DNA of 64,000 nt. It comes from Pseudomonas nunensis. Lineage in GTDB: Bacteria > Pseudomonadota > Gammaproteobacteria > Pseudomonadales > Pseudomonadaceae. A program made the translations under genes and the position numbers. The stretch lies in NCBI RefSeq assembly GCF_024296925.1, contig NZ_CP101125.1, positions 2,420,501 to 2,484,500 of the forward strand. The letters are read 5' to 3'. The notes under the pieces are model-generated. The model was not told the origin of the DNA and did no database searches. It was given only the letters and a program-made list of their open reading frames with translations. This document shows positions 14,101 through 24,169 of this stretch, piece after piece (positions within the stretch are counted from its first letter, which is position 1; each line of letters starts with the position of its first letter).

Positions 14101-15279
14101 TTATTTTTGAAGTAAAGCCACCCGGCGACCGGCCATGAAACACAACGATCCGCCCATCGCAGTCAGCGCACACAAGGCGTAGAACATCGTCGGCGCCGGG
14201 GTGTGCATCAGCAGGAAACCGCAAATCACCGGACTCAAGGCGCCACCAAGGGCCGCGAGGTTCTGTGCGCCGTAGTAACTGCCACGCAGTTCTTCCGGGG
14301 CCAGGGTGTCGACGAACAGGAATTCCGCTGGATAGATGATCATTTCGCCGAGGGTGAAGATGAACATCGCCACGCACCAACTGACCAAGCCGTCCGCCAG
14401 GCTGAACCCGATCAACCCGACGATGAACAGGCTGGTGCCGCCGGCAATCCAGTAGCGCAGTTGTTCGCGCTTGAGGAAGCGGCCGATCTGGTATTGCAGC
14501 AGGATCACGCTAATGGCGTTGCAGGCGAGCAGGGCGGCCATGGTTTCCAGGGCGCGCTTGGAGTCGTGGGTCACCAGCAGGTATTGCGACAGGTACAGGG
14601 TGAAGCGGCCGTGAACCACGGTGCTGAACAGGCAGCCGCAGGTGAACATGATCAGCGTGCGGTCGTTCTTCAGGGTGGTCAGGGTCTTGAGAAAGCTTTG
14701 CGGCTGGCCGATGGCGGGCACTTGGGCCGCGTCTTTTGGAATTCCGCTCATCAAGAAGATACTGAAGAACGCGATGCCGCCAGCGATCAGGAACGGCGCA
14801 ATCGGATACACCCCGGCGATCACTACGCCGAGCATGGGACCGGTGGCGTAGCCGATGTTGGTCAGGGTGTAGCGCAGGGAAAACGCCTTGGCCCGTTGGC
14901 CCATGGGCAGGTTTTCGCTGAGGATCGCCTTTGAACCGATCAGGAACAGCGCCGAAGCGGTTTCGGTGATTACCAGGGTGGCGGTGGTCAGGTAGAGGTT
15001 CTCGGCGAAGGTCAGCAGCACGAAGCCGATGGCGCTGGAGAGCATGGCCAGGATCAACAGCCGCCGTTTCTCCAGTCGGTCGATGATGTAGCCGCCGTAG
15101 AGCGCGAGCAGGGTGGCGATAAACACCGCGATGCCCAGCAGCAGGCCAACGTCCTGTTGGTTGAGACCGAGTTTGTTGCTCAGGAACAGCGTGAGCAACG
15201 GGCTGGTGATGGCGCGGCTGACGACAATGGTCAGCGAGCAAATCATCAACCGGCGGATAACGAGCGAGTAAGTGGCCAC
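14101..15279 (-). CDS. MFS transporter
   Basis: Major facilitator of 392 residues with about 12 hydrophobic segments. The loop 2-3 signature appears as GGYIIDRLEKRRLL (about residues 62-75), and ETASALFLIGSKAILSENLP is the loop after helix 4. General resemblance is to MdtH/DHA1-type drug exporters, but the substrate cannot be told from sequence. It lies downstream of the MmgE/PrpD gene on the same strand but is separated by 150 bases containing a REP pair, so membership of that operon is doubtful. Confidence 0.85.
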   Translation of the reverse strand: MATYSLVIRRLMICSLTIVVSRAITSPLLTLFLSNKLGLNQQDVGLLLGIAVFIATLLALYGGYIIDRLEKRRLLILAMLSSAIGFVLLTFAENLYLTTATLVITETASALFLIGSKAILSENLPMGQRAKAFSLRYTLTNIGYATGPMLGVVIAGVYPIAPFLIAGGIAFFSIFLMSGIPKDAAQVPAIGQPQSFLKTLTTLKNDRTLIMFTCGCLFSTVVHGRFTLYLSQYLLVTHDSKRALETMAALLACNAISVILLQYQIGRFLKREQLRYWIAGGTSLFIVGLIGFSLADGLVSWCVAMFIFTLGEMIIYPAEFLFVDTLAPEELRGSYYGAQNLAALGGALSPVICGFLLMHTPAPTMFYALCALTAMGGSLCFMAGRRVALLQK

Positions 15280-15430: not shown

Positions 15431-16807
15431 TCAAGTCAGCCACCGATCCAGCATCGCAACAGATTCCAACTCTTCAACCCGCCACAACTGAGCAAGCAAT
15501 TCCTCCGCTTGCCCCTGCGGCAAAACCCGCCCGGCCAGACTGAAAAACTTCTCCTCCAGCGCCGCATCACTCAGCGGATTCCCCGGCGCGCCCAACGGTA
15601 CTTCGACGCAAAGACTCACCTGCCGACCGTCCACGGTCCGCACGCTCACCACGGGCTCGCCATCCTCGGACAATCGCGGGTCCACCTCAAGCCGAATCCG
15701 CGACATCCAGTGCGCGATTCGCGGGTCACTGCGTTGTGCATCGTCATACGCCTGCAACCGGCAATGCCCCAGCACCAATCGCGCAGCGAGGGCATAACGC
15801 AAACTCATCTGCGCCGCCGCCAGACTCGCGACTTCCTGGCCGCCGCACATGTCCTGCAGAAACACGCACAGTGAAACCTGGATGTCCTCGACCTGATCGG
15901 CATCAACCTGCAACTGCGCGAGCAGCAAACCGAGGGCATCAATCGCCGAATGGGTCCCACGGCACGCGGCGTAAGGCTTGATCGAGCAGCGGGCGAGTTT
16001 CCACACCCGACCCAACTCCGCGTCCAGCGCCTCGGGCACGGCGGTATCGCCGGCGAGGGTCTTGAGAAAACCGCCCCAGACATCATCGAACAGTTTGGTC
16101 GGCCCGGTGATGCCGCGCTGGGCAAACCGCGCCGCGAGCAAACCACCTTCGGCAGCACGACCGCTGTGGAGTTTTTTGCTTTGGGAGCCGTCATGAATAA
16201 ACGCCCAAAGCCCGCCGCTGAAACTGCCGGCGATGCCGAGCGCGGACAAGGTTTGCGCAGCATCGAGGCCGAGAATCCGCGCACTGGCCGCCGCCGCACC
16301 GAACACACCACAAGTGGCCGTGGAGTGCCAACCGGCGCCGTTATGCGCTGAGTAGCTGCCGCAGGCTTCGAGCACCCGACGGCCGATTTCGTAGCCGATG
16401 ACCACGGCGGTGATGAACTCCCGGCCACTCACGGTTCTGCCCGACATCGACACGGCGGCCATGACTGCCGGCAGCACCACTGCGCCGGAATGATCGCAAC
16501 CGCCAGTGTCGTCCAGTTCCAGCGCATGGGCGGCGATGCCATTGAGCATCGCCGCCTGAGCCGCGCCGACTCGCCAATCGGTGCCCCAGACCAGCGTGCT
16601 GCCGGTTTCGCCTTCGAACACCAGACGCGCCTGTTTCGCCACATCACTGCCAGCCCCGGCCAGGGTTGCGCCGAAGGTGTCGAGAATGTGTCGTTTGGCT
16701 TGGGCCACCAGCGCCGTCGGCAAATCCTCAAAGTGGGTATCGACGCAAAACTGCGCCAGGTGCTCCATGCGCATCACGCCCTGGTAGGCGCTGCCGAACT
16801 CGTTCAT
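15431..16807 (-). CDS. MmgE/PrpD family protein
   Basis: A 458-residue protein of the family that contains 2-methylcitrate dehydratase, cis-aconitate decarboxylase and iminodisuccinate epimerase. Visible family hallmarks are ELDDTGGCDHSGAVVLPA (about 97-114), GYEIGRRV, AHNGAGWHSTATCGVFGAAAA (about 149-169) and KPYAACRGTHSAIDA (about 277-291). Its ATG overlaps the stop of the upstream NodB-like gene (ATGA), so it is translationally coupled to it. It is the last gene of the ABC transporter/lyase operon. This is not the prpD of the methylcitrate cycle, since prpB/prpC are absent. The reaction is unknown; racemase, epimerase or dehydratase chemistry on a dicarboxylate-like substrate is the family norm. 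Confidence 0.85.
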   Translation of the reverse strand: MNEFGSAYQGVMRMEHLAQFCVDTHFEDLPTALVAQAKRHILDTFGATLAGAGSDVAKQARLVFEGETGSTLVWGTDWRVGAAQAAMLNGIAAHALELDDTGGCDHSGAVVLPAVMAAVSMSGRTVSGREFITAVVIGYEIGRRVLEACGSYSAHNGAGWHSTATCGVFGAAAASARILGLDAAQTLSALGIAGSFSGGLWAFIHDGSQSKKLHSGRAAEGGLLAARFAQRGITGPTKLFDDVWGGFLKTLAGDTAVPEALDAELGRVWKLARCSIKPYAACRGTHSAIDALGLLLAQLQVDADQVEDIQVSLCVFLQDMCGGQEVASLAAAQMSLRYALAARLVLGHCRLQAYDDAQRSDPRIAHWMSRIRLEVDPRLSEDGEPVVSVRTVDGRQVSLCVEVPLGAPGNPLSDAALEEKFFSLAGRVLPQGQAEELLAQLWRVEELESVAMLDRWLT

Positions 16808-17691
16808 ACGCCGTAATCCCGATAATGCCGCTCATACACCGCCGCTGGATGATCCTCCGTCACCTGAACCGCCGAATCCGACCACCATTGCGCGACTTCG
16901 CCCGCCGTGGCGATCCACACGTCCTTATGTTGCTGAATGCCTTCGAGCAACTCGCGCAACACGCCAATCCGCCCCGGCGTCGCGATGATTTCCGGGTGCA
17001 GCCGCAGCACATAGCAGAGGCCAAAGCGATGAAACCCGGCGAAGTCCATTTGCAGGTTGCCGAGGGTGTGGCTGTAGGACGCGATCCGCGATTGCGCCGG
17101 CGGCACCGCCGGGCTGAGGTTGAAGGCGAAATAGGGTTCGTCTTCCAGTTCGTAATGCAATGGCAGTTCGATCACTTCGGGCGCCGTCGGGTGAGCGAAT
17201 GGCAAATCATCACCGCGCCAGGATGAAGACCAGCGGATGCCTTGATCCCGCAACGCTTCGATGAATCCTGGTGCGCCATTGCCCGCCGGAATGCGAAACC
17301 CGGTTGGACGCACGCCGGTTAACGCGGTCAGGGCTTCGCAGCCCTTGGCGATGTCGGCGCTCTGCGCGGCTAAATCGAGGTTGTCGTAGTTCTGGTGCCG
17401 ATAACCGGCGCAGGCGATTTCATGCCCGCCAGCGAGTATTGCCTTTATGTGTTCAGGGTTTTCCTCGGCGACGATGCCGGGAATGCACCAGCTGCTGGAC
17501 ACGCCCAACTCTGCGAACAAATCCAGCAGACGATTCACGCCGCGCTGGCTGCCGTAGCGCCAGACTGACAAGGTCTTGTCGCGCCCGGCGACTTCCGGGG
17601 CCTGAGTGAGGATGCCGTGGATGTCGTTGTAATCGACGGTTAATACGACGGCGCAGCGGTAGCCGTTCGGCCAGACGTTGGAATCAGCCAT
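16804..17691 (-). CDS. Polysaccharide deacetylase (NodB-fold) family protein, metal site altered
   Basis: A 295-residue member of the PuuE/HpPgdA-like branch of carbohydrate esterase 4. Motif 1 is TVDYND (about residues 18-23). The second motif, which in the neighbour at 17684-18532 reads HGYKH, here reads AGYRH, so one of the two expected metal-binding histidines is an alanine. RIPAGNG and LRLHPE (C-terminal histidine) are kept. It overlaps the neighbour by 8 bases and the MmgE/PrpD gene by 4, so all three are coupled. Enzymes of this branch hydrolyse C-N bonds in small ring compounds (allantoin) as well as acetylated sugars; in this operon a small-molecule amidohydrolase is more likely. Confidence 0.85.
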   Translation of the reverse strand: MADSNVWPNGYRCAVVLTVDYNDIHGILTQAPEVAGRDKTLSVWRYGSQRGVNRLLDLFAELGVSSSWCIPGIVAEENPEHIKAILAGGHEIACAGYRHQNYDNLDLAAQSADIAKGCEALTALTGVRPTGFRIPAGNGAPGFIEALRDQGIRWSSSWRGDDLPFAHPTAPEVIELPLHYELEDEPYFAFNLSPAVPPAQSRIASYSHTLGNLQMDFAGFHRFGLCYVLRLHPEIIATPGRIGVLRELLEGIQQHKDVWIATAGEVAQWWSDSAVQVTEDHPAAVYERHYRDYGV

Positions 17692-18532
17692 GGTGATGCT
17701 CCTTCAGCCACCACTGGGCGACATCGCGGCAGGTGGCGAACCACACGTCATCGCGCTGGCGCATGTGTTCGAAGAGTTTTTCCAGCAACAGGATGCGCCC
17801 CGGTTTGCCGGTGATCTTGGGGTGGAACAGGGTGGTCAGGCACAAGCCTTCGTCCATGGCGCCGTCGTATTCGCGGCACCAGTTGTCGAGGGTCAGCTCG
17901 TAACTGGCGGTGCGGTCGAGCCCGGAAGGGAAGTCCGGGGCGCGGGTGTAGGCGAGGGAGGCGTAGTCGTCCATTTCCCAGCGCCCGGGGATTTCCACCA
18001 GTGGCGTGTCGAAGCCGGGGACGTTGACCAAGTAAGGCCGGTCATCGCCGCGCATGCTGCTGGAATAGGTCACGCCGGCTTCCACCAGCATCGCCGGGGT
18101 TTCGGCGCGCCAGTCACCGGACGGCGTGCGAAAACCTTCGGCGCGGATGTTCAAGTGCTTCCAGAACACCTCGCGGGATTTCTTCATCACATCCTTCTGC
18201 TGGTCCAGCGTCAGGGCGTAAAAGGATTCGTGTTTGTAGCCGTGATACGCCACTTCATGCCCGCGCTCGACAATCGCCTGGCATTGTTTCGGCCAGTTCT
18301 CCACGACCCAGGCCGGGACGAAGAACGTTGTCGGGATCTTGAACGCATCGAGCAAATCGAGAAGACGGGGCAGGGCACGGTAAGGGCCGTAGCCGCCGAA
18401 GCCGAAGTACTCGGGCTTGTGCCAGATCGAGCCATTGAGCATCGCATCGCCGGTCGGGCCATCGAGATCAAAGGCCAGGGCGAGGCAGGCCTTGTGCGGG
18501 GCGGGCCAGGTGGGTTGCAGCGAGGAGGACAT
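17684..18532 (-). CDS. Polysaccharide deacetylase (NodB-fold) family amidohydrolase
   Basis: A 282-residue CE4-fold protein with an intact-looking metal site: AFDLDG at about residues 21-26, YHGYKHESFY (both histidines) around residue 95, RTPSGDWRAETP, and the conserved TLFHPKITGKPGR near the C-terminus. No signal peptide is visible, which argues against peptidoglycan deacetylation in the periplasm and for a cytoplasmic amidohydrolase. It is the first enzyme gene after the transporter genes and overlaps its paralogue at 16804-17691 by 8 bases. The two may act together or form a mixed oligomer. Confidence 0.86.
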   Translation of the reverse strand: MSSSLQPTWPAPHKACLALAFDLDGPTGDAMLNGSIWHKPEYFGFGGYGPYRALPRLLDLLDAFKIPTTFFVPAWVVENWPKQCQAIVERGHEVAYHGYKHESFYALTLDQQKDVMKKSREVFWKHLNIRAEGFRTPSGDWRAETPAMLVEAGVTYSSSMRGDDRPYLVNVPGFDTPLVEIPGRWEMDDYASLAYTRAPDFPSGLDRTASYELTLDNWCREYDGAMDEGLCLTTLFHPKITGKPGRILLLEKLFEHMRQRDDVWFATCRDVAQWWLKEHHHG

Positions 18533-18567
18533 CAGTAGATCTCCAGTGATTTATTGCTGAAACGCCC

Positions 18568-18705
18568 GTAGCAGCTGCGGAGCCCGCGAGGCTGCGTCCG
18601 GCGGCGAAGCCGTCGTAAACCCTACACGCGAGGTGTTCCTGACACACCGTGTCGTCTGGTTTAACGACTGCTTCGCAGTCGAACGCAAGCTTCGCCAGCT
18701 GCTAC
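18568..18705. repeat. Long intergenic palindromic repeat, GTAGCAGCTG family
   Basis: Third repeat family. GTAGCAGCTGCGGAGCCCGCGAGGC at the left is mirrored by GCAAGCTTCGCCAGCTGCTAC at the right. Inner inverted segments (GCGGCGAAGCCGTCG; ACTGCTTCGCAGTCG) give a multi-branched foldback of about 138 bases between the binding-protein gene and the first NodB gene. It may attenuate transcription so the binding protein is made in excess. Confidence 0.72.
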
Positions 18706-18734
18706 ATCGACCGTAATTGCGCGAGCTACGGGGT

Positions 18735-19559
18735 TTATTTGCCGGCGTTAATCGTCACAGTCTTGATCGCGCCCAGCTCCAGGTCCCACTTCTTCAGGAT
18801 GGTCTGGTACGTGCCGTCATCAATCATGCTCTGCAACGCCACCTTCACCGCTTCACTCAACTCAGGCTTTTTCTTGCTCAAACCCATGCCGGAGAACTGC
18901 ACGGAAATCGGCTGGCCGACGGTTTTGTACATGTCCTTTTCCTGAGTCTTCAGGTACGACAAGGTTTCGCTACCCTGCATCGCTGCGTCGATGCGGCTCT
19001 GGCGCAGTTGCGCACGGGCATCTGCCGAGCCTTCGGTACCGACTACCACGATCGCCGGTTTGCCGGCGGCTTCGCAGTTGGCCTTGCTGTACTCGGCAAT
19101 TTCCGCCGGGAACGTAGTGCGGCGGCTGGTGCCGACTTTTTTGCCGCACAGGTCGGTGATCTCGTTGAAGTCCTTGTTCTTCTGCAAGGTGTAGAACTGC
19201 GGACCGCTGGTGAAGTAGTCGACGAAGGTCACGCTGGCCTGACGCTCTACGGTGTCGGTCATGCCCGACAGCACCATGTCCACGCGGTCGGTGGTCAGTG
19301 CGTTGATCATTTGCTCGAAGCCGGTTTCCTGCCATTTGATCTTCACGCCCAGTCGCTCGGCCAGGGCGTTGCCCAGGTCATAGTCGAGGCCCGTCAGCGT
19401 GTTGGTCGCCGGGTCCTTGAAATCCATCGGCGGGTAGTTCGGCATGATCGCAACGACGATCTCGCCCTTGGCCTTGATGCTGGCCGGCAATTCGGCGGCG
19501 AAGCTGAAGCTGGAAGCCATCAGGCCGGCGAGTACTGCTGGAATTACGAAGTTCTTCAT
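18735..19559 (-). CDS. ABC transporter substrate-binding protein (polar amino acid family)
   Basis: Periplasmic solute-binding protein of 274 residues with a clear Sec signal (MKNFVIPAVLAGLMASSFSF, cleavage after FA-A near residue 22). The type-II fold follows with YPPMDFKD, TGLDYDLGNALAERLGV and DMVLSGMTDT, characteristic of the bacterial extracellular family 3 (polar amino acid) binders. Genes for its ATPase and permease lie just upstream in the same operon (40-base gap). The ligand is unknown; the downstream lyase/amidohydrolase genes suggest an amino-acid-like compound, not a free standard amino acid. Confidence 0.9.
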   Translation of the reverse strand: MKNFVIPAVLAGLMASSFSFAAELPASIKAKGEIVVAIMPNYPPMDFKDPATNTLTGLDYDLGNALAERLGVKIKWQETGFEQMINALTTDRVDMVLSGMTDTVERQASVTFVDYFTSGPQFYTLQKNKDFNEITDLCGKKVGTSRRTTFPAEIAEYSKANCEAAGKPAIVVVGTEGSADARAQLRQSRIDAAMQGSETLSYLKTQEKDMYKTVGQPISVQFSGMGLSKKKPELSEAVKVALQSMIDDGTYQTILKKWDLELGAIKTVTINAGK

Positions 19560-19598
19560 GGTCGTTCTCTTATGAGTGTTGTGAGCGCCAAGCGGCGC

Positions 19599-20363
19599 TT
19601 AGGTTCGAACGGCAGAAATGAAGCTTTGGGTGCGTGGGTTTTGCGGACTTATTAGTATTTCTTCGGGGCTTCCAGCCTCCACGATCTGCCCGCCGTCCAT
19701 AAACACCATGCGGTTGGATACTTCGCGAGCGAAGCCCAGTTCATGGGTGACGACGATCATGGTCATGCCGGTTTGCGCCAGATCGCGCATCACCGACAGC
19801 ACCTCACCGACCAGTTCCGGGTCGAGTGCCGAAGTGGGTTCATCGAACAACATCAGCTTGGGCCGCATCGCCAACGCGCGGGCAATCGCCACCCGTTGCT
19901 GCTGGCCGCCCGACAGTTCAATCGGGTAGCTGTTGCATTTGTCGGCCAGGCCGACGCGAGCGAGCAGTTCCAGGGCTTCCTCATGCGCTTCTTTGGGCGA
20001 GCGCTTGAGCACCTGGCACGGGCCTTCGATGATGTTTTGCAGCACAGTCATGTGCGGGAACAGGTTGAATCGCTGGAACACCATGCCGGTGGCCAGGCGT
20101 TGACGGGCAATCTGCGACTCGTTGAGTTCGTGCAGTTTGTTGCCGACGACCCGGTAACCCACCAGTTCGCCGTCGACCCAGAGGCCGCCCTTGTCGATTT
20201 TTTCCAGCTGATTGACGCAGCGCAGCAAGGTGCTCTTGCCCGAGCCGGACGGGCCGATGATGCACAGCACTTCGCCTTGCTCGACCTCGATGTTGATGTC
20301 CTTGAGCGCGTGGTACTGGTCGTAATATTTGTTCAGGCTCACGGCCTTGACGATGTTTCTCAT
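19599..20363 (-). CDS. Amino acid ABC transporter ATP-binding protein
   Basis: Cytoplasmic ATPase of 254 residues with Walker [10 protein letters not shown] (about 39-47), the ABC signature [15 protein letters not shown], Walker [15 protein letters not shown] and the switch histidine in VVTHELGFA. The GlnQ/HisP type is clear. The start is at the ATG 20361-20363 ([10 protein letters not shown]) with GAGGAG 7 bases upstream; the frame extends further upstream into the permease without support. It lies 10 bases after the permease stop and 39 bases before the binding-protein start. Confidence 0.93.
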
Positions 20364-20373
20364 GTCGGACTCC

Positions 20374-21252
20374 TCAAGAACGCTTGCCGGCGCCGCGAGC
20401 GAAACGACGCTCCAGACGGCTTTGACCAAAGGACAGGACGGTGACGGCGACCAGGTACCAGATACCGGCGACGATCAGCAATTCCATGACCCGGGCGTTG
20501 GCGTAGTAGATGTTCTGGGCGTTGTAGAGCAGTTCCGAGTACTGGATGACGCTCGCCAGCGAGGTCATTTTCACCATGCCGATGAATTCGTTGCCGACCG
20601 GCGGAATGATGATCCGCATGGCCTGCGGCAGGATGATCCGGCGCAGCGCTTGCAGGCGCGGCATGCCGATCGACTTGGCGGCTTCGTACTGTCCGGTGTC
20701 TACCGACAACAGGCCGGCGCGCACCACTTCGGCGGTGTAGGCGCCCTGGTTAATGCTCAAGCCGAGCAGGGCCGCCACGAACGGCGTCATCAGGCTCACG
20801 GTGTCCATTTCGAACAGGCCGGGGATGCCGATGGTGGGGAAGATCAGCGCCAGGTTGAACCACAACAGCAGTTGCAGGATCAACGGCGTACCGCGGAACA
20901 GCCAGGTGTAGGTAACCGCTACGTAGCGCAGGATCGGGTTGGCCGACATGCGCATGATCGCGGTGATCACCCCGAACACAATGCCCTGGGCCATCGCCAA
21001 CACCGCCATGACGATGGTGTTGAACAATCCCCACATGATCGCCTGGGAGGTGACGAACTGGCCGATGTACGACCATTCGATCTTGCCTTCAGCGAAGGCG
21101 CGCACCAGGCCGAGAATCGCGATGACAATCACGGTGGCGAAGAAAATCCGCCCGTAATAACGCCGTGGCACATGGTGGTACTGGGTGATATCAAACTGGT
21201 TGTCCGCCAGGTTGCGCTCCGCCTGGAGACGTTCTGCCTGAGTCTGGCTCAT
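20374..21252 (-). CDS. Amino acid ABC transporter permease
   Basis: A 292-residue HisM-type inner-membrane permease. It has about five membrane helices after a ~45-residue cytoplasmic N-terminus. The family EAA-like loop is visible as [24 protein letters not shown] (about 194-217). Only one permease gene is present, so a homodimer is expected. It sits 171 bases after the lyase stop (a REP element lies between) and is tightly followed by its ATPase. Confidence 0.92.
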
Positions 21253-21293
21253 GATGTTTCTCCGTACACTGGTGTTTCAGGTCTAGCCCAACC

Positions 21294-21400
21294 CCTGTGG
21301 GAGCGGCGGTGCGACGATTCGACTTGCTCGCGAAGGGGCCGGGCCAGTCGCCATTCATGTTGAATGACACACCGCGTTCGCGAGCAAGCCCGCTCCCACA
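21294..21400. repeat. REP doublet with an altered left arm
   Basis: The right arm is standard (TTCGCGAGCAAGCCCGCTCC). The left arm reads GTGGGAGCGGCGGTGCGACGATTC followed by GACTTGCTCGCGAAG: the central GGCTTGCT is widened by about 14 extra bases. Located between the lyase stop and the permease start. Confidence 0.78.
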
Positions 21401-21423
21401 TTGGTATTGCGGTGCCCCATGTA

Positions 21424-22851
21424 TCAGAGGCGGAAGCCCTGATAGTTCTCGGTCCACTGTTGCTGCGCGGCGAGGGCGGTTTTCAAGCGGCCAATCTGTT
21501 CGCGCACCTGTTGCGGCGCGGTGCCGCCCCAGCCACTACGGGCAGCGATGGCGGCTTCCAGGGTCAGGCTGTCGCGCACTTCCGGGGTCAGGCGTGGATC
21601 GATCTCGGCCAGTAGCGCCGTCGACGCTTCCCACAGCTCAATGTCATGTTTCTCACAGGCTTGCACCAGTGCACCGGTAATCTCGTGGGCTTCCTTGAAC
21701 GGTACGCCACGCATGGCCAGCCAGTCGGCGACTTCGGTGGCGAGGGTGAAGCCCAGTGGCGCCTGACGCCGCAGTTCTTCAACGTTGACCTTCATGGTCG
21801 CGACCATCCCGGCCATCGCTGGCAGCACCAGCAACAGGGTGTCGACACTGTCGAGCACGCCGTTCTTGTCTTCGCTCAAGTCGCGGTTGTAGGACAGCGG
21901 TAAGGATTTCAGGGTGGACAGCAGACCGGTGAGGTTACCGATCAGGCGACCAGCCTTGCCGCGAGCGAGTTCGGCGATGTCCGGGTTTTTCTTCTGCGGC
22001 ATGATCGAGCTGCCAGTGGCGTAGGCATCGTCCAGCGCGACCCAGCGAAATTGCCGCGACGACCACAGGCAAAACTCTTCAGCGAGGCGGGAAATGTTGA
22101 TCCCGAGCATGCTGGCGATAAACAGGAATTCGGCGACATGGTCACGGCTGGCGACGGCGTCGATGGAGTTTTCGCACACGCCGCTGTAGCCCATTTCCTT
22201 GGCCGACTGCTGTGGCAAACGAGCGATGGCGGAGCCGGCCATGGCCGCTGCACCGAGTGGCGACAACGAGGTGCGCACGTCCCAGTCCACCAGGCGTTGC
22301 ACGTCACGCAGCATCGATTGGGCGTGGGCCAGCAAGTGGTGAGCGAACACGATCGGTTGCGCCTGCTGCAAGTGAGTGAAGCCAGGGCAGATGCTTTCGA
22401 TGTGCTGTTCGGCCTGATCCACCAGCGCTTGTTGCAGGGCCAGCACTTCAACGGCCAGGGTGCGCACGTGATCACGCAGGAACAGACGCAGGTCGTTGGC
22501 GGTCTGGTCGTTACGCGAACGACCGGCGCGCAGCTTGCCACCGAGGGCGCCGAGGCGTTCGGTCAGCAGGCGTTCGATAAAGGTGTGAACGTCTTCGTCG
22601 TCCAGGGTCGGGGCGATGCTCCCGGCCTTGAAGTCGGTGCCGATGCGCTCAAGGGCATCGAGCATGGTCAGGGTTTCTTCTTCGCTCAGCAAACCGGCGC
22701 GTTGCAGTTCCCGGGCATGCGCCTTGGAGCCGGCGAGGTCGTAAGGCGTGAGGCGAAAGTAGCGCTCAGGGCAACGGGACAGGGCCGCCAGGGCTTCGGA
22801 TGGGCCGCTTTTGAAGCGTGCACCCCAGAGACGGTCGGTGGTTTGAGACAT
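21424..22851 (-). CDS. Argininosuccinate lyase-family protein (probably catabolic paralogue)
   Basis: Aspartase/fumarase-superfamily lyase of 475 residues. The superfamily signature loop is intact: TGSSIMPQKKNPDIAE at about 279-294, with the catalytic serine. RAGRSRNDQTAND (about 108-120) and the THLQQAQP histidine segment (about 159-166) match ArgH. It is the first gene of the operon with an ABC importer, NodB-fold proteins and MmgE/PrpD and has no arg genes nearby. Its N-terminal region (ALSRCPERYFRLTPYDLAG) differs from what I recall of the housekeeping pseudomonad ArgH. EDDS lyase and similar aminopolycarboxylate C-N lyases belong to this family, so a fumarate-releasing cleavage of an imported N-succinyl-type compound is a fair inference, not proof. 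Confidence 0.85.
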   Translation of the reverse strand: MSQTTDRLWGARFKSGPSEALAALSRCPERYFRLTPYDLAGSKAHARELQRAGLLSEEETLTMLDALERIGTDFKAGSIAPTLDDEDVHTFIERLLTERLGALGGKLRAGRSRNDQTANDLRLFLRDHVRTLAVEVLALQQALVDQAEQHIESICPGFTHLQQAQPIVFAHHLLAHAQSMLRDVQRLVDWDVRTSLSPLGAAAMAGSAIARLPQQSAKEMGYSGVCENSIDAVASRDHVAEFLFIASMLGINISRLAEEFCLWSSRQFRWVALDDAYATGSSIMPQKKNPDIAELARGKAGRLIGNLTGLLSTLKSLPLSYNRDLSEDKNGVLDSVDTLLLVLPAMAGMVATMKVNVEELRRQAPLGFTLATEVADWLAMRGVPFKEAHEITGALVQACEKHDIELWEASTALLAEIDPRLTPEVRDSLTLEAAIAARSGWGGTAPQQVREQIGRLKTALAAQQQWTENYQGFRL

Positions 22852-22910
22852 TGTTGTTTTTCCTCGTCGTTACGCGAAAGTCAGAAAGTGATCTGGTGTT
22901 TTGCGAAGAG

Positions 22911-22937
22911 CTTCGCGGGCAAGCCTCGCTCCTACAG
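22911..22937. repeat. Single REP arm
   Basis: One CTTCGCGGGCAAGCCTCGCTCCTACAG unit without a partner, in the 352-base divergent gap between the lyase and LysR genes. The rest of this gap is AT-richer near the LysR start and must hold both promoters; no gene is seen there. Confidence 0.75.
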
Positions 22938-23203
22938 ATCGGTTTGCCAGGCCTCGAAACACCCGCCGCAAATCAATGAGGCGTGGTCAGGCCAAAGCAG
23001 TTTTCAAAGGGGCAGTTGCGAAGGGGCGAGAGCTGATCGAAGTGTCAGCTTTTAATAGTGCGAAATCAGTGAGTTGGCACTCAGGTACGGATTTTATTAA
23101 CGGTTGCCAAGCCTTGTTTTCTGTGTTCATTATTATTGGCCAGCTATGTTTTTTGTTGTTGGACACAGATTGTTTGCTAGAGCGCCAGAGGTAAATAAGC
23201 ATT

Positions 23204-24169
23204 ATGGAAACCCCACTTTCCAATTCCGGAAACCCGCCGCCAAAACCGACTCAGCGGGCTCCGTTGGCGCTCAGCGGCCTGGACTTCAAACTGCTCAAAG
23301 TGTTCAAGGCGGTGGTCGAGGCCGGTGGCTTCAGTGCCGCGCAGAACGAGCTGAATGTGGGCTTGGCAGCCATCAGCAAACAGATTTCCGACCTGGAAAT
23401 CCGCATCGGCATGCGCCTGTGCACCCGTGGGCGAGAAGGCTTTCACCTGACTGAAGAAGGACGCCTGGTGTATCAGGCGTCGATTGATTTGTTTGCCTCG
23501 GTCGATAACTTTCGGGATCGGCTTAGTTCGGCGCAGAATGAACTTATCGGTGATTTGGGTGTGGGGATTATTGATAACACGATCTCCGACCCTAATTCCC
23601 CGTTAGTTGCAGCGCTTAGAAGAATCAACACAGAGTCACCCAAAGTAAGGTTCCAACTTCAGGCGTCGCAACTGGATGAAGTAGAACGAGGGGTTGTGGA
23701 AGGGCGATTAGTTGCGGGGATTGTGCCGGTTTATCAGAAGCGCGAAGAGTTCGATTACTACACGCTTTACGAGGAACGCTCCGAGGTTTACTGCGCGGTC
23801 GGCCATCCGTTGTTCACAGTGCCGGAGGCAGAAATCAGTAGTAACGTGCTCAAGGATTACGAGTGCGTGAACCATCGCTACGCGATCCATCGGGACAAAC
23901 TCAACTTTGCCCGCTATGACAGTTTTTCCGCCTCAGCGACCCAGGTTGAAGCCGTGGCGCTGTTGATCAAGACCGGATGTTTCGTGGGTTTTCTACCGCA
24001 GCATTACGCCGCGAACCTGGTGGCCCAAGAGCAATTTCGTGCGGTGCGTCCGGACCTTATTCATATCGTCACGCCGTTCAATCTGATCCTGCGCCACAAC
24101 ACCGTGCGCAGCCCGCTGGTCAAGGCGTTTGCCCAGGCGTTGGGTGTCGATTTGAAGGCACAAGGTTAA
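23204..24169 (+). CDS. LysR-family transcriptional regulator
   Basis: A 321-residue LTTR. The winged HTH lies at about residues 25-85 (LKVFKAVVEAGGFSAAQNELNVGLAAISKQISDLE), and the effector-binding domain follows (GDLGVGIIDNT onward). A proline-rich ~22-residue extension precedes the HTH. It is transcribed away from the lyase-ABC-amidohydrolase operon, the standard layout for an LTTR that activates its divergent neighbour in response to the substrate or an intermediate. Weak ribosome site (AGAGG about 10 bases before the ATG). Confidence 0.9.
   Translation: METPLSNSGNPPPKPTQRAPLALSGLDFKLLKVFKAVVEAGGFSAAQNELNVGLAAISKQISDLEIRIGMRLCTRGREGFHLTEEGRLVYQASIDLFASVDNFRDRLSSAQNELIGDLGVGIIDNTISDPNSPLVAALRRINTESPKVRFQLQASQLDEVERGVVEGRLVAGIVPVYQKREEFDYYTLYEERSEVYCAVGHPLFTVPEAEISSNVLKDYECVNHRYAIHRDKLNFARYDSFSASATQVEAVALLIKTGCFVGFLPQHYAANLVAQEQFRAVRPDLIHIVTPFNLILRHNTVRSPLVKAFAQALGVDLKAQG

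Follow-up and report, generated by a model that had tools for sequence, protein, structure and literature searches.

A conserved operon with an argininosuccinate lyase paralog is a candidate route for the degradation of succinylated guanidino compounds in Pseudomonas nunensis

Results

An operon of seven genes lies beside a divergent LysR gene

We analyzed a 64,000-nucleotide stretch of Pseudomonas nunensis DNA (contig NZ_CP101125.1, positions 2,420,501 to 2,484,500), hereafter called the window, and examined an operon within it that encodes a relative of argininosuccinate lyase (ArgH), an ATP-binding cassette (ABC) importer, two proteins of the NodB fold, and an MmgE/PrpD protein (PrpD below). 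A reading of the open reading frames (ORFs) of the window places seven minus-strand genes and one divergent LysR gene between positions 15431 and 24169. The operon resides on a 7.33 Mb chromosome, and its GC content is 0.616, versus 0.587 for the window. The features of the locus, in window coordinates, are as follows.

21424..22851, minus strand: ArgH-like C-N lyase, the first gene (PF00206/PF14698; TIGR00838; residue audit; tree)
20374..21252, minus strand: single ABC permease of the amino-acid type (PF00528; TIGR01726 at 66.4 bits, cut-off 42.2)
19599..20363, minus strand: ABC ATPase (PF00005; best NCBIfam match GlnQ at 320 bits, below the cut-off of 379)
18735..19559, minus strand: periplasmic binding protein (SBP_bac_3; alignments to five solved chains; columns)
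17684..18532, minus strand: NodB2, with a complete Asp and HxxxH motif, related to PuuE and HpPgdA (PF01522 Polysacc_deac_1; relatives in the Protein Data Bank, PDB)
16804..17691, minus strand: NodB1, with the HxxxH motif lost (PF01522 Polysacc_deac_1; PDB relatives; columns)
15431..16807, minus strand: MmgE/PrpD protein, proposed epimerase (PF03972/PF19305, MmgE_PrpD_N/C; nearest solved relative 2hp0)
14101..15279, minus strand: YdeE-like transporter of the major facilitator superfamily (MFS) (220.8 bits, below the model cut-off of 582; linked in Pseudomonas loci)
23204..24169, plus strand: divergent LysR-type regulator (PF00126/PF03466; divergent ortholog at 36 loci)
22852..23203, no strand: LysR-lyase intergenic region (block 23102-23137 by the LysR start; alignment of 29 intergenic regions)

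An original prediction, made from the window sequence, had assigned families to the eight genes from the lyase to the regulator, and Pfam and NCBIfam agree with it for all of them. The predicted layout of seven minus-strand genes with a divergent LysR gene also stands, but the gaps are not short everywhere, as had been stated. The lyase and permease genes are separated by 171 bp, and the binding protein and NodB2 genes by 202 bp. At the other extreme, NodB2 overlaps NodB1 by 8 bp and NodB1 overlaps PrpD by 4 bp. The ATPase ORF as listed opens with a TTG codon at 20429, and an ATG at 20363 corresponds to Met23 of that ORF; a start at 20363, 10 bp after the permease gene, is more likely than one at 20429.

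The block at 23102-23137 is strongly conserved across 29 LysR-lyase intergenic regions of the genus and is a possible binding site for the LysR regulator. A scan of the region for promoters and terminators found fewer sites than in shuffled sequences. The MFS gene lies 151 bp beyond the PrpD gene on the same strand.

The gene cassette recurs across genera, families, and classes

The operon is genuine, and its conservation exceeds what chance would give. We compared 78 loci (a set of 40, 15 of a set of 16, 7 from plasmids, 14 further loci, and 2 others) from Pseudomonas, relatives of Burkholderia, and alphaproteobacteria, wherein near relatives are counted separately. Because 62 of these loci were found by using NodB2 as bait and 16 by using the lyase, the presence of the bait gene itself is not evidence. 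All seven genes are present at 48 loci. The lyase is found at 73, the permease and the ATPase at 74 each, the binding protein at 75, and PrpD at 65, whereas two NodB copies are found at 64 loci, one at 12, and none at 2. The misses at loci L155 and L158 fall at contig ends. The order LysR (divergent), then lyase-permease-ATPase-binding protein-NodB-NodB-PrpD, recurs over genera, families, and classes. Thus, the genes co-occur as the original prediction had anticipated, and a scattering of the set among genomes is not what these loci reveal. The MFS gene is present at 30 of the 78 loci, namely 29 of the window's genus and one of P. batumici.

Of 398 genomes in the genus, 68 (that of P. nunensis included) have a NodB2 ortholog with 71% identity or more, and one other match is partial. 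With an E-value threshold of 1e-60, NodB2 was detected in 7 of 398 genomes across the phylum. In surveys whose centers were chosen because they had already matched, the same threshold gave 16 of 200 genomes in the family of genome G642 (which includes the Burkholderia of L004), 3 of 385 in the class of G448, and 1 of 197 in the order of G766. Erwinia, Rouxiella, Burkholderia, Streptomyces, and Variovorax are among the named sources in the best 120 of 609 NodB2 relatives, and the Streptomyces homologs in that set are 63 to 67% identical. When 25 actinobacterial genomes and 4 others were searched for the cassette, the yield was only the already known Burkholderia and one NodB2 homolog of 40% identity from Nocardia, whose locus (L205) was left out of the counts.

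The lyase is an ArgH paralog with replaced residues

By family score, the first gene of the operon encodes an ArgH paralog. The window lyase scores 530.6 to 530.8 bits with TIGR00838, well above the cut-off of 279.5, and a separate housekeeping argH at chromosome positions 6495964-6497313 scores 642.5 bits; genome G448 likewise carries a housekeeping argH besides its cassette lyase. The residues R113, N114, T159, H160, S281, K287, and N289, in a numbering that we take to match human argininosuccinate lyase, are kept in 60 of 60 operon lyases, the window lyase included. All fumarate-site and catalytic residues are therefore retained, which agrees with the predicted activity of a C-N lyase that cuts its substrate to fumarate. 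The accessible text of published work describes a fumarate-side role for His160/162 (PMC2779060) and confirms a role for the SS-loop in argininosuccinate lyase (PMC13411527). The literature that we searched, delta-crystallin papers included, covers the fumarate side and did not confirm contacts on the arginine side.

The operon lyases depart from ArgH at other positions. S27, D31, Y321, and Q326 are invariant in 108 of 108 ArgH references, comprising 79 sequences from ArgH-scan loci (mostly actinobacterial) and the window genome's own argH, and 29 from a further set that includes G448. These four residues, together with K329, presumably contact the arginine half of the substrate. The window lyase has C27, Y31, Y321, and S326 at the corresponding columns, and thus carries Ser27 to Cys, Asp31 to Tyr, and Gln326 to Ser changes, along with a Glu330 to Asn change. 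Among 56 lyases of the window type (type A), D31 is never kept (Y in 37, F in 19) and neither is Q326 (S in 37, A in 18, G in 1), and C27 is present in 29; replacement of E330 is likewise frequent. Of 14 plasmid loci added later, all have Y, F, or H at position 31, and the 13 that are readable at position 326 have S, A, or I there (L242 splits). The best 120 of 7983 database homologs have Y31 without exception and Q326 in none, with one carrying I at position 281; those that are named are called argininosuccinate lyase or argH1.

The better-scoring argH elsewhere and the replacement of D31 and Q326 bear out the earlier suspicion that this lyase is probably more than a second argH. In contrast, the closeness to ethylenediamine disuccinate (EDDS) lyase that had been proposed is not found. 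Among solved lyases, the window protein scores 501.6 bits with 6iem versus 207.7 bits with 6g3d. The latter, which we take to be EDDS lyase, is deposited as ‘Argininosuccinate lyase’, as are related PDB entries.

ArgH-type lyases seem to have entered the cassette twice

Four cassettes, from Ensifer (L168), Rhizobium (L172), Ochrobactrum (L173), and genome G448 (L129), carry a different lyase (type B) that is encoded at the operon end and is 39 to 40% identical to the window lyase. Type-B lyases keep D31 and Q326, and all four have C27, F321, and P330. In a 72-row lyase tree, built by a quick method and containing long branches, the 18 type-A and 4 type-B sequences each form one group with an SH-like approximate likelihood ratio support of 100. 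Type A branches beside actinobacterial ArgH, and type B falls among proteobacterial ArgH. A single clade uniting both types is rejected (approximately unbiased test, p-AU 9e-5; log-likelihood lower by 145). Because the two groups are separate and the one-clade tree is rejected, the cassette of importer, NodB, and PrpD genes seems to have gained an ArgH-type lyase twice, and each recruitment seems to have brought changes on the presumed arginine side. In a 31-row NodB2 tree, all 26 type-A cassettes are separated from the type-B cassettes and a Paracoccus cassette that has no lyase. A plasmid search with the type-B lyase matched 136 records, of which just the three that had already been read reached 60% identity.

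Plasmids of Pseudorhizobium flavum (L247) and Rhizobium rosettiformans (L248) carry units of a lyase, an importer, and a LysR gene, with no NodB or PrpD gene. In their lyases, position 31 is His and position 326 is Ile, which possibly marks a third lyase specificity.

The importer belongs to the polar amino-acid type

A binding protein, a TIGR01726 permease, and an ATPase encoded in one operon are the parts of a polar amino-acid ABC importer. Of the NCBIfam models, that of the Lys/Arg/Orn subfamily matches the binding protein best, at 136.3 bits versus a cut-off of 256.35. Arg106 is kept, Arg146 is invariant, and Gln195-Gly196 is present in 62 of 62 sequences, as is a nearby Glu198. In five solved chains, three of which are one protein, an Asp stands in the place of Gln195-Gly196 or beside it, and proteins of the window type are without it. 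We assume that this Asp contacts the alpha-amino group of the ligand. Because Gln195-Gly196 replaces it, the ligand may be one with carboxylates and perhaps no free alpha-amino group.

Importer genes are duplicated at some loci. On a Paraburkholderia sp. PGU19 plasmid (L171, 10170-21088), permease and ATPase genes occur upstream of NodB2 and again after the lyase, and there are two binding proteins. A second binding-protein gene, 40 to 51% identical, follows the cassette downstream of PrpD or NodB at seven loci (L126, L171, L174, L190, L191, L200, and L246).

The NodB and PrpD proteins have relatives that act on rings and stereocenters

The Asp and HxxxH motif of NodB2 is complete in 65 of 65 sequences, whereas NodB1 lacks HxxxH, yet keeps many other invariant residues. 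Among solved chains, both are nearest to the uncharacterized 3rxz, followed by PuuE-type proteins and HpPgdA. Neither approaches the score of an allantoinase, as they reach 88.1 and 82.1 bits with the PuuE model TIGR03212, for which the cut-off is 424.6. PuuE and HxnM have small cyclic compounds as substrates, and the HpPgdA/PuuE group is tied to cyclic imide hydrolases in the accessible text of two reports (PMC9304392, PMC3084791). The window proteins share the NodB fold with PuuE, HpPgdA, and cyclic imide hydrolases such as HxnM and the P. putida imidase. By this kinship, NodB1 and NodB2 might hydrolyze a cyclic imide or amide, and the ring or amide hydrolysis that had been predicted for them is consistent with relatives that stand near ring-opening enzymes.

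The nearest solved relative of PrpD is iminodisuccinate epimerase (2hp0, 1.7e-35), with a small margin over B. subtilis IRG1 (3.1e-33) and with cis-aconitate decarboxylases also close behind. The best named relatives are from P. frederiksbergensis (97% identical). With the PrpD equivalog models, the protein scores 21 to 23 bits versus cut-offs of 458 to 950, which does not support 2-methylcitrate dehydratase. For iminodisuccinate epimerase, the accessible part of one report proposes His99 and Tyr145 as the two bases (PMC7347537). The equivalent of His99, His106, is kept in 54 of 54 sequences, whereas Tyr145 is replaced by Asn156 in all 54. The predicted kinship to this epimerase is therefore upheld by the nearest structure and by the histidine, but not by the second base. 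The system of Agrobacterium tumefaciens BY6 likewise combines an epimerase of the MmgE/PrpD fold with a lyase, and differs in that the lyase described here is ArgH-derived. We know of no NodB or ureohydrolase counterparts in the iminodisuccinate epimerase system.

On two Sinorhizobium plasmids (L240 and L242, both at 16117-17444), the MmgE/PrpD gene beside the lyase is split over two frames, and in S. meliloti 1021 and Sinorhizobium sp. K101 it may no longer be intact.

Ureohydrolase genes adjoin some cassettes

A ureohydrolase or arginase gene lies near the cassette at 11 of the 78 loci (L125, L135, L169, L190, L191, L241, L243, L244, L245, L249, and L251) versus 1 of 67 ArgH-scan control loci. 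The comparison is rough, as cassette loci supplied the queries, most of the controls are from actinobacteria, and the 11 include close relatives. Two annotated operons of Agrobacterium and one of Neorhizobium consist of a LysR gene followed by argH, permease, ATPase, binding protein, MmgE/PrpD, and polysaccharide deacetylase genes, with speB as the last gene. One of the three records labels the deacetylase ribulose-phosphate 3-epimerase and the PrpD protein 2-methylcitrate dehydratase. In Microvirga lotononidis, the order is an Lrp-like gene (named by eye), arginase, ornithine cyclodeaminase, NodB, a LysR-like gene, lyase, importer, PrpD, and ureohydrolase, and the Paracoccus cassette adjoins arginase and ornithine cyclodeaminase genes.

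The L190 ureohydrolase is nearest among solved chains to 3-guanidinopropionase (3nip, 288 bits), followed by guanidinobutyrase (254 bits) and the best agmatinase (194 bits), and scores 94.3 bits with the arginase model, well under its cut-off of 227.6. The L125, L190, and L241 proteins pass the NCBIfam agmatinase model (202.7, 185.3, and 185.2 bits versus 174.3), and the neighbor at L135 is a guanidinobutyrase (654 bits). Seven full ureohydrolases of the L190 type are 64 to 93% identical; with the L135 guanidinobutyrase, the identity of this type is only 40 to 42%. The window operon itself contains none, and the genome has two ureohydrolases outside it, one of which is 85% identical to that of L135. 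Guanidinosuccinate is not hydrolyzed by a human relative of guanidinobutyrase, which depends on an acidic head group, according to the accessible text of its description (PMC9772407).

The ureohydrolase and arginase neighbors suggest that the released amine contains a guanidine. Because the L190 ureohydrolase is nearest to 3-guanidinopropionase, yet passes the agmatinase model along with two others, the amine half could be a guanidino acid or agmatine.

On a Neorhizobium galegae plasmid (L251, 15454-15731), two short ureohydrolase pieces are matched after NodB, which suggests a decayed last gene of the operon.

Sinorhizobium meliloti argH2 probably belongs to this lyase group

The pSymB megaplasmid of S. 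meliloti encodes a lyase that is 62.5% identical to the window lyase and lies beside an importer of the same type, in a record that has no locus tags. Because this lyase gene and argH2 both adjoin such ABC genes, the two are probably the same and argH2 probably belongs to the lyase group described here. The locus differs from that of the window in having one NodB rather than two, in addition to its PrpD gene in two frames. In a tolC mutant, argH2 (SMb21094) and SMb21095-97 are strongly down-regulated together with nitrate and other nitrogen genes, a drop that the authors tie to lowered expression of NtrC (PMC2912261, in its accessible part). The same text annotates ArgH2 as a second argininosuccinate lyase and SMb21095-97 as a transporter with no assigned function. 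These data are one outside hint of a nitrogen-scavenging role.

These genes are not named in the accessible main text of a study of nitrogen stress in S. meliloti (PMC3596328). Among the papers listed in searches of open-access literature for the gene set, none dealt with it by title other than the argH2 report, and an inducer of the transporter may be in print in subscription papers, which lay beyond those searches. The papers listed on EDDS and iminodisuccinate revealed no such operon by title.

Other genes near the cassette

A class II aldolase-like gene lies near the operon at L130, L132, L133, L134, L135, and L204, and at the edge of L131. Full copies are 67 to 72% identical to that of L135, and genes there resembling those for hydroxyacid dehydrogenases were named by eye only.

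Discussion

A proposed pathway for succinylated guanidines

Our preferred reading, held tentatively and with a little less than even confidence, is that the operon scavenges nitrogen by degrading a guanidino (amidino) compound with a 1,2-dicarboxyethyl (‘succinyl’) substituent at a guanidine nitrogen. The substrate would resemble argininosuccinate, and that its other end is something different from the free L-arginine head is a proposal of similarly near-even standing. The pathway is built from family membership, residue conservation, and gene linkage.

A polar-amino-acid-type ABC importer would bring the compound into the cell as a polycarboxylate. One or both NodB proteins might then hydrolyze ring-closed forms, as their kinship to PuuE and cyclic imide hydrolases suggests. 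Alpha-guanidino acids cyclize to creatinine-like lactams and racemize easily, and it is because of this closure that ring opening by NodB is proposed. The MmgE/PrpD protein would epimerize the succinyl carbon that had been scrambled in the rings, an accessory step with which the absence of PrpD from 13 of the 78 loci fits. The conserved residues of the ArgH-like lyase are consistent with release of fumarate together with a guanidino compound, which may be agmatine or a guanidino acid. Finally, a ureohydrolase, encoded in the operon of several rhizobia and elsewhere in the P. nunensis genome, would release urea. The route works like an iminodisuccinate-type pairing of epimerase and lyase, although it would be built on an ArgH-type lyase.

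None of the labels ArgH, EDDS lyase, iminodisuccinate epimerase, PrpD, or PuuE was adopted, as each fails in a tested feature. On the basis of the residue audit, we rejected the filing as a plain second argH, and membership with EDDS and iminodisuccinate enzymes was rejected by the 6g3d score and the change of Tyr145 to Asn. Both are kept as alternative explanations.

Alternative explanations

The operon could instead salvage argininosuccinate and its ring-closed ‘anhydrides’, wherein NodB reopens the ring, PrpD corrects the succinyl carbon, and the lyase yields L-arginine and fumarate. We consider this unlikely, although several findings speak for it. The lyase exceeds the ArgH cut-off, type-B lyases keep D31 and Q326, arginase and ornithine cyclodeaminase genes stand beside the cassette in Paracoccus and Microvirga, and the binding protein matches the Lys/Arg/Orn subfamily best, albeit below its cut-off. 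This explanation must, however, accommodate a genome that already has a housekeeping ArgH, two recruited paralogs that are both changed at the presumed arginine-end positions, a binding protein that lacks the Asp of its solved relatives, and an L190 ureohydrolase that is nearest to 3-guanidinopropionase and far under the arginase cut-off. Rather improbable, in our estimation, is the degradation of polyaminocarboxylates resembling iminodisuccinate, EDDS, or aspergillomarasmine by an epimerase and a C-N lyase. The logic of an epimerase with a stereoselective lyase is known for iminodisuccinate, as the title of a 2004 paper by Cokesa indicates, the nearest solved relative of PrpD is the epimerase of that compound, and the features of the binding protein suit a polycarboxylate with no free amino group. 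The lyase nevertheless branches with actinobacterial ArgH, it scores far lower with the chains that we take to be EDDS lyase than with 6iem, Tyr145 is lost, and NodB and the ureohydrolases are left with no reason to be present. Because the ureohydrolase and arginase neighbors point to a guanidine in the released amine, which neither EDDS nor iminodisuccinate would give, this chemistry is disfavored. Of the original prediction, which had named these compounds, the parts list stands and the epimerase and lyase reading is partly supported, whereas the closeness to EDDS lyase is not supported.

Catabolism of hydantoins or ureides is quite improbable. In that case the substrate would be an N-carbamoyl rather than an N-amidino succinate, with NodB opening a hydantoin and the lyase giving fumarate and a urea derivative. 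It would explain the kinship of NodB to PuuE allantoinase, although at 88 and 82 bits this falls far short of the cut-off, and a hydantoinase/caprolactamase-like gene near L168 would fit. L168 is the sole such case in the scanned loci, however, ureohydrolases and arginase act on guanidines, and the lyase is ArgH-derived. We regard as very improbable a biosynthetic or detoxification operon whose lyase runs in reverse to join an amine to fumarate. The presence of a binding-protein-dependent importer at 74 to 75 of the 78 loci and the degradative nature of the ureohydrolase, arginase, and ornithine cyclodeaminase neighbors argue for catabolism, even though the operon in Pseudomonas loci is followed by an MFS gene whose closest match is an efflux family and argininosuccinate lyase is reversible according to the accessible part of one report (PMC13411527). 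What probability remains, we assign to none of these five readings.

Returning to the degradation of a succinylated guanidino compound, several observations weigh against it. A ureohydrolase is missing from the stretch read at 67 of the 78 loci, including all loci of the window's genus but L135, and the control that makes the other 11 stand out is rough. The ureohydrolases of the L190 type may stem from a single acquisition, and those that pass the agmatinase model point to agmatine and not to a guanidino acid. Retention of D31 and Q326 in type-B lyases may mean that arginine is the product there, and the arginine-side role of the replaced residues is itself our assumption. Glu198 of the binding protein could serve in place of the lost Asp. 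For PrpD, Tyr145 is not kept; the roles given to it and to the NodB proteins rest on kinship, and the lyase and importer of L247 and L248 occur with neither of them.

Implications

A bolder conjecture, which we hold with real doubt, is that an undescribed and widespread pathway exists that scavenges nitrogen from N-(1,2-dicarboxyethyl)guanidino compounds, ring-closed and racemized forms included. It would have recruited two ArgH proteins separately and retooled each on the arginine side, many argH genes would be misnamed, and a succinyl-guanidine that is common in the environment would exist.

If this were true, a new pathway would be defined and a new natural substrate predicted. The combined loss of D31 and Q326 would serve as a fingerprint that separates these lyases from true ArgH, and many genes named argH, probably including argH2 of S. 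meliloti, would need another name. A metabolic capability of plant-associated and soil bacteria may thus be hidden behind a housekeeping name such as argH1 and a generic amino-acid transporter.

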